From Norana najaformis (lineage: Eukaryota > Annelida > Clitellata > Crassiclitellata > Hormogastridae): a stretch of 64,000 nt of DNA. The notes below the pieces were generated by a model. It was not told the origin of the DNA and ran no database searches. It saw only the letters and a list, made by a program, of their open reading frames with translations. A program made the translations under genes and the position numbers. The stretch covers positions 13,087,806-13,151,805 of the forward strand of contig OZ029921.1 of assembly GCA_964023275.1 (NCBI GenBank). Reading direction: 5' to 3'. The stretch's first letter is position 1, and every line of letters starts with the position of its first letter. Of the stretch, positions 12,586 through 13,005 are shown in pieces.

Positions 12586-13005
12586 CTATCTACGAATCTG
12601 GACTTCCATACTCTTACAGAAGTTGGGTGTGAATGGAATGCAGTTGAAATAGTGGCAGTGAGGACAGCTGTAGACTGGTGAAACATAGAAAAGGACGACA
12701 AGAACTATAAACAAACCGATGGTGGCTACAAGGCACACAACAATACCAAAGAGCTTGCCACGTTTGTCTTTGAGGTTGAACGTTATGTATGGGAGCAGCG
12801 CAAATGACAGCAGAAAGCCAAACACAAATCCAATAAGATGTGCATAGTTGTCGACCATCGGCAGCAGGCCTACAACGAACAGTGTCAGGAGAAGAAGGCC
12901 TAGTTTAGCCAGCGCCATGCCAGGATTTGTCAGAATGTACCAGTTTTGTATGATCTCAACAAACAGACAAGCTAGTAATCCAAACTGCGACCCTGATGGA
13001 CCAGC
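12586..13005 (-). CDS. RHBDF: iRhom exon 15, TM4-7 and C-terminus
   Basis: A 420-nt terminal exon with acceptor ttttacag and stop at 12586-12588. It starts AGPSGSQFG, where active rhomboids have GxSG and human iRhoms GPAG. It continues [28 protein letters not shown] (the TM6 His is kept) and FALLPYITF, then a Cys-containing tail [14 protein letters not shown] as in vertebrate iRhoms. The 3' UTR follows to the left; a possible ATTAAA signal reads at 12336-12331. Confidence 0.97.
   Translation of the reverse strand, partial: AGPSGSQFGLLACLFVEIIQNWYILTNPGMALAKLGLLLLTLFVVGLLPMVDNYAHLIGFVFGFLLSFALLPYITFNLKDKRGKLFGIVVCLVATIGLFIVLVVLFYVSPVYSCPHCHYFNCIPFTPNFCKSMEVQIRR

Follow-up and report, generated by a model that had tools for sequence, protein, structure and literature searches.

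Why should a gene that carries the hallmark proline of an inactive rhomboid still encode both residues of a catalytic serine-histidine dyad? The question is raised by an iRhom gene on the minus strand of a 64-kb stretch of DNA from Norana najaformis (contig OZ029921.1), which we refer to in its whole length as the window. We consider it very probable that this gene, one of six iRhom loci found in its genome, encodes an ordinary pseudoprotease of that family, which has kept the ancestral serine of the TM4 site and the histidine of TM6 even though the site is dead, and which acts by binding clients instead of cutting them.

The gene and its last coding exon

When translated from 13005 down to 12589, the last coding exon opens with AGPSGSQFG and contains the TM6 stretch DNYAHLIGF. 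The original prediction, that both residues of the dyad are encoded, that proline precedes the serine and that the oxyanion asparagine of TM2 is missing, is borne out codon by codon. The exons and residues of the gene model are as follows.

12586..13005, minus strand: final coding exon, running from AGPSGSQFG to the stop and covering TM4 to TM7 and the C-terminus by alignment with human iRhoms
12991..13002, minus strand: GPSG motif, from codon check
13000-13002, minus strand: Gly of GPSG, from codon check
12997-12999, minus strand: Pro of GPSG, from codon check
12994-12996, minus strand: Ser of GPSG, codon TCA, from codon check
12991-12993, minus strand: second Gly of GPSG, from codon check
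12838..12840, minus strand: TM6 His (CAT), within DNYAHLIGF, opposite the catalytic His of GlpG in the alignment
12586-12588, minus strand: stop codon, from codon check
13173..13326, minus strand: TM2-TM3 exon, from border check, kept at all five other iRhom loci
13753..13853, minus strand: exon leading into TM2 (...SLFLHAG), found at all five other loci
16692..16865, minus strand: IRHD exon (DCKEPVIP...LCSQ), from human iRhom alignment, at all five other loci
21230..21293, minus strand: IRHD exon with two conserved Trp, from human iRhom alignment, at all five other loci
22351..22439, minus strand: IRHD exon (PTLSDFLTW...GQDP), from human iRhom alignment, at three of the five other loci
23850..24011, minus strand: IRHD exon (...KDCS), from human iRhom alignment, at all five other loci
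26312..26386, minus strand: IRHD exon (...GPRQ), from human iRhom alignment, at all five other loci
27752..27863, minus strand: TM1 exon, from human iRhom alignment, at four of the five other loci
32861..33141, minus strand: cytosolic N-terminal exon, its donor fixed at 32861 and 33141 being an open-frame limit only, at four of the five other loci, no Pfam family
33869..34069, minus strand: candidate second N-terminal exon, with limits set by the open frame only, at one of the five other loci, no Pfam family

The last exon follows an acceptor that reads TTACAG/GCTGGTCCATCA, and the exon directly before it (13173-13326) ends at the donor GTTGAG/GTGATT in phase 0. Nine AG acceptors and eight GT donors flank the core exons, nine in number, which lie between 27863 and 12586 and take the gene from TM1 to its stop; their borders were picked by hand, and the model does not include the gene start. 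Spliced from TM1, the core comprises 450 amino acids, of which residues 246-383 form a Pfam rhomboid domain. A Pfam match to GtrA_DPMS_TM lay below the cut-off and was ignored, as was the ABC transporter that was the sole result of an NCBIfam search of the core and lay far below the cut-off. The introns of the gene hold reverse transcriptase frames that look retroelement-like, judged by eye from their translations, at 18330-19879 (plus strand), 20796-21143 (minus strand) and 29166-31658 (minus strand).

In TM2, which reads HAGLLQLIIT, there are two substitutions relative to an active rhomboid. Glutamine (13317-13319) and threonine (13305-13307) occupy the positions that we take to be those of His150 and Asn154 on the GlpG sequence. 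The loss of the histidine is a feature that the original prediction had not mentioned. The numbers His150 and Asn154 are those used in PMC2989971, and Ser201 and His254, the catalytic pair of GlpG, are numbered after PMC3149277.

An iRhom by its class features

Three traits serve to describe iRhoms in the consulted parts of PMC3149277 and PMC6451368: a GPx motif where proteases have GxS, a long cytosolic N-terminus, and the IRHD; in that of PMC7065720 the motif is written as GPxx-H. The window gene has proline directly before the serine position and an IRHD, that is, the Cys-rich loop between TM1 and TM2, which the alignment with human iRhom1 and iRhom2 spans. PMC3149277 also describes iRhoms as being without one or both of Ser and His, and to that description five of the six iRhom loci in this genome, the window gene and four others, are exceptions in that they encode both. 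Because GPx for GxS (PMC6451368) and GPxx-H (PMC7065720) are what the other excerpts give, we take the missing Ser and/or His to summarise the sequences available at that time and not to be diagnostic. Of the features of a rhomboid protease, the gene retains the Ser-His dyad in its sequence (12994-12996 and 12838-12840), whereas it has GPSG where a protease has GxSG with x other than proline, and Gln and Thr where a protease has the TM2 His and Asn.

The nearest relatives of known structure are the two human iRhoms, and the last exon alone already matches them in the PDB with E 3e-36, far beyond chance. The alignment with human iRhom2 (RHBDF2; PDB 8snl_B, 9o58_B) takes in TM1, the IRHD and the rhomboid core over residues 1-446 of 450 (E 1e-155), with 54% identity over the compared core, and that with human iRhom1 (RHBDF1; PDB 9xy4_A, 9q7y_A) covers residues 1-422, where the chain ends (E 7e-152), with 57% identity. 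Both share with the window gene the proline before the site, the TM6 histidine, the lack of the TM2 asparagine and the two IRHD tryptophans, but both differ from it in having alanine at the serine position (GPAG) and in keeping the TM2 histidine, which is Gln here. The expectation that vertebrate iRhoms have alanine at this site thus holds for human, the species in which it was tested. The match of E. coli GlpG to the core is weak (E. coli chains score E 0.0013 to 0.02, and a shorter query gives E 0.22 or worse); within that weak match (E 0.22) the two residues of its catalytic dyad pair with the Ser and His of the window gene, whereas its motif is GLSG and its TM2 has His and Asn against Gln and Thr here. 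GlpG is not known to have an IRHD.

Six iRhom loci in one genome

We searched the last exon against the source genome (608 Mb, 17 contigs), taking matches up to E 10. Nine matches were obtained, six of which, at E 4e-23 or better, are terminal exons of iRhom genes, while the remaining three (E 0.09, 1.2 and 2.8) contain stops and were dropped. The six loci and their motifs, which together with the exon borders are read directly from the assembly, are these.

C9, window locus: GPSG
C6, 22.47 Mb: GPSG
C8, 15.55 Mb: GPSG
C8, 4.76 Mb: GPTG, a natural Ser-to-Thr exchange at the catalytic position
C14, 13.45 Mb: GPSG
C3, 44.49 Mb: GPSG

GPSG is therefore the majority state in this genome, present at five of six loci. 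The original prediction had seen in the window gene an evolutionary intermediate, and that description survives only in part: a serine and a histidine are retained beside a proline that is present and a TM2 asparagine that is lost, but a motif common to five loci, with GPTG at the sixth, is neither rare in this genome nor the mark of a special or transitional gene, and we reject the idea of such a gene. As it stands, the single window gene appears ordinary for its genome.

The last three exons have identical borders and phases at all six loci, with a single GC donor (on C14), and the frames are intact from TM2 on at every one of them. Most of the core exons further upstream were matched at all five other loci, the exceptions being the TM1 exon (four of five) and one IRHD exon (three of five). 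These observations bear on the suspicion that the serine is an artefact of a wrong splice junction, an assembly error or a pseudogene. The core exons of the window gene have AG/GT borders and an open frame, and, because four other loci encode GPSG at the same exon start, with GPS at the identical junction, we regard an error of assembly or splicing as so improbable that it can be set aside.

A more serious alternative to a serine that is merely left over is that selection keeps its hydroxyl for a structural purpose, for example to cap the start of TM4 or to form a bond inside the core. All six loci encode Ser or Thr, while 47-74% of four-fold sites differ in pairwise comparisons; the Ser codons of the five GPSG loci are TCA, TCC, TCT, TCT and TCT, thus varying in their third base, and the Thr codon is ACT. 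Conservation at five of six loci nevertheless gives no sign of special constraint, because more than half of the ungapped core columns (119 of 223, 53%) reach that level, with agreement at five or more of the six loci, and among the eight columns of GPSGSQFG the serine site is the sole variable one in the six loci. The two human iRhoms, moreover, do without the hydroxyl, having Ala. Selection on the serine is thus weakly indicated by these comparisons; given that each of the six loci has Ser or Thr there, a hydroxyl at the start of TM4 may plausibly serve the structure, and that the residue is kept by selection we hold to be a tentative possibility, somewhat doubtful as the account of its presence.

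The six iRhom loci lie on five contigs and, with their matching exon borders, form an expanded family; the numbers of iRhoms given in the consulted part of PMC6451368 are one in Drosophila and two in mammals. The genome contains 14 rhomboid matches, part of which are iRhom exons. A search of it for molluscan haemocyanin gave no match, nor did the controls of that search, so that it carries no weight as to the phylum.

Residue states across iRhoms and rhomboids

For the comparison of active-site residues we used eight iRhoms, namely the six loci described here and the two from human, with three bacterial rhomboids as the outgroup. The latter were taken from four that were confirmed among 77 pattern matches in genome contigs, one of the four (L012) being dropped. 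Further iRhoms were sought in viral contigs, in which none of 23 pattern matches was confirmed, and no animal iRhoms beyond those of the source genome and the PDB were found in the viral contigs or the genome contigs searched.

Proline before the site and the TM6 histidine are present in all eight iRhoms, and the TM2 asparagine in none, its position being taken by Ser in four and by Thr in four. The serine site has Ser in five, Thr in one and Ala in two, with Ala only in the human pair; at the TM2 histidine position there is His in the human pair, Gln in five and Ala in one. The three bacterial rhomboids have GASG and both the TM2 His and Asn, whereas the complete active-site set is kept by none of the eight iRhoms. 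In these alignments, then, different lineages have kept different remnants: human iRhoms retain the TM2 histidine without the serine, while here the TM2 histidine has been lost and the serine has mostly been kept.

The presence of Ser in all three bacterial rhomboids and in five of the six iRhoms of this genome, with Ala only in the two human ones, is most simply explained if the serine is a retained ancestral residue. On an 11-row tree the serine site needs two changes. This tree, in which five of eight inner branches are open, the bootstrap has not settled and long branches meet, leaves the iRhom root open, and of three groupings for the attachment of the human pair or of C3 none was rejected (AU p 0.21, 0.56 and 0.43), so that the ancestral reading is one of parsimony. 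One may argue, conversely, that Ala was the state of the iRhom ancestor and that Ser was regained in this lineage, a scenario for which the open base of the tree leaves room and which, between suitable Ala and Ser codons, takes only a single base change. Such a reversion requires extra changes, however, and would have to accommodate the Ser of the most divergent locus on C3, which has 41-47% identity to the other five, as well as that of the bacterial outgroup; we consider it unlikely.

If a wider alignment confirms the retention of the serine, the order in which a pseudoprotease is made would become readable, with the proline and the loss of the TM2 asparagine coming first and being shared, and with a later, lineage-specific shedding of remnants, of the serine in the human line and of the TM2 histidine here. 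The iRhoms would then illustrate neatly how an active site, once killed by a single decisive change, decays piece by piece.

A probably dead site that keeps its dyad

Proteases inactivated in the laboratory offer the closest analogue to the window gene. The AP mutants of Rhomboid-1, AarA and RHBDL2 keep their other active-site residues. Like the window gene, they have proline directly before an intact serine, although they were engineered on purpose in active proteases (Zettl et al. 2011, PMC3149277). In the consulted sections of that paper, Drosophila Rhomboid-1 lost its activity when given the iRhom proline, purified AarA lost virtually all of it and mouse RHBDL2 was strongly reduced, and fly iRhom, human iRhom1 and mouse iRhom2 had no activity against the substrates tested. 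The window gene is a natural version of this construct, in which the two TM2 residues have additionally been lost. The original prediction had made inactivity depend on the proline and the oxyanion site together; the first part agrees with these experiments, in which proline alone abolishes or strongly cuts the activity of other rhomboids, while the second has to be set against PMC2989971, in whose available text catalysis does not depend on the TM2 His and Asn. It follows that the proline carries most of the argument for inactivity. It would distort the start of TM4 in such a way that the adjacent serine, a retained ancestral residue, could no longer act as a nucleophile, and the loss of the TM2 His and Asn may add to this. 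An AlphaFold model of the last exon (four rows) had a mean pLDDT of 52, which is too poor for judging the geometry of the site.

The dyad might still react, or cut some special substrate, in spite of the proline. Ser and His are, after all, encoded at five of six loci, and mouse RHBDL2 with the proline was strongly reduced and not abolished; against this stand the abolished Rhomboid-1, the virtually abolished AarA and the inactivity of the iRhoms that were tested (all from the consulted sections of PMC3149277), the loss of both TM2 residues, and the Thr that has replaced Ser at one locus. Residual catalysis is for these reasons very improbable, and we give equally little credence to a pair that would, even next to the proline and with both TM2 residues lost, be chemically alive in the narrower sense that a probe or substrate could turn it into an acyl-enzyme. 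Were the pair alive, the line between protease and pseudoprotease would not be closed in animals with GPSG iRhoms.

A search of literature text found no paper that joins GPSG with rhomboid, or iRhom with GPxG, and no match to the peptides GPSGSQF, GPSGSQFG and GPAGSQFG, figures lying outside the reach of a text search; the consulted portions of a cryo-EM paper (PMC11248996) contain no discussion of the dead site. We make no claim that the GPSG state in iRhoms is unpublished.

Proposed client binding, and metalloprotease genes

Given the effect of the proline reported in PMC3149277, as far as its excerpts go, an ordinary iRhom pseudoprotease with a retained dyad should act as iRhoms do, that is, by binding clients. 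By analogy with the iRhoms that serve ADAM17-type sheddases and EGF-family ligands, a role that, like the effect of the proline, we take from papers, the protein would bind membrane clients through its TM domain and its IRHD and influence their trafficking or regulation; inactivity and a function of this kind are what the analogy makes most likely for the window protein. Its IRHD is intact, with two tryptophans seven residues apart that are conserved with respect to the human iRhoms. Judged by their spacing and by our own chain numbering, these correspond to the two IRHD tryptophans described as necessary for the maturation of ADAM17 in the consulted part of PMC8233286. Human iRhom2 contacts ADAM17 through Ile386, according to the available text of PMC12615303, and because the corresponding position in the window gene is Cys, again in our own chain numbering, binding of ADAM17 is not assured.

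The genome contains 19 matches to the ADAM17 membrane-proximal domain (PF16698), of which 17 form an array on the minus strand of C2 (35241939-35856690; about 0.6 Mb) and two lie elsewhere (C15:14765025 and C1:2747748). The two array copies that we looked at (L042 and L043) have an open frame rich in Cys on the 5' side of the PF16698 domain. Among the matches listed in a genome search with two reprolysin families, none places a reprolysin catalytic domain inside the C2 array. To judge from its domain matches, the array may possibly reflect an expansion of ADAM17-like proteins in a genome with six iRhoms, which might serve them as clients. An HExxHxxG-like DNA pattern, counted across the genome, occurred 7834 times against 6407 in the control, which is little above it and uninformative. 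Another metalloprotease array is apparent on C13, where 19 of the 25 Reprolysin_5 matches listed fall within one half-megabase stretch (C13:417873-909866). Four nearly full-length reprolysin-type catalytic domains were found among the matches listed, two on C1 (C1:7523580 and C1:23517321) and one each on C4 (C4:43460647) and C6 (C6:25843659); each is contained in an open frame 573 to 769 codons long, which gives these genes an intronless look.
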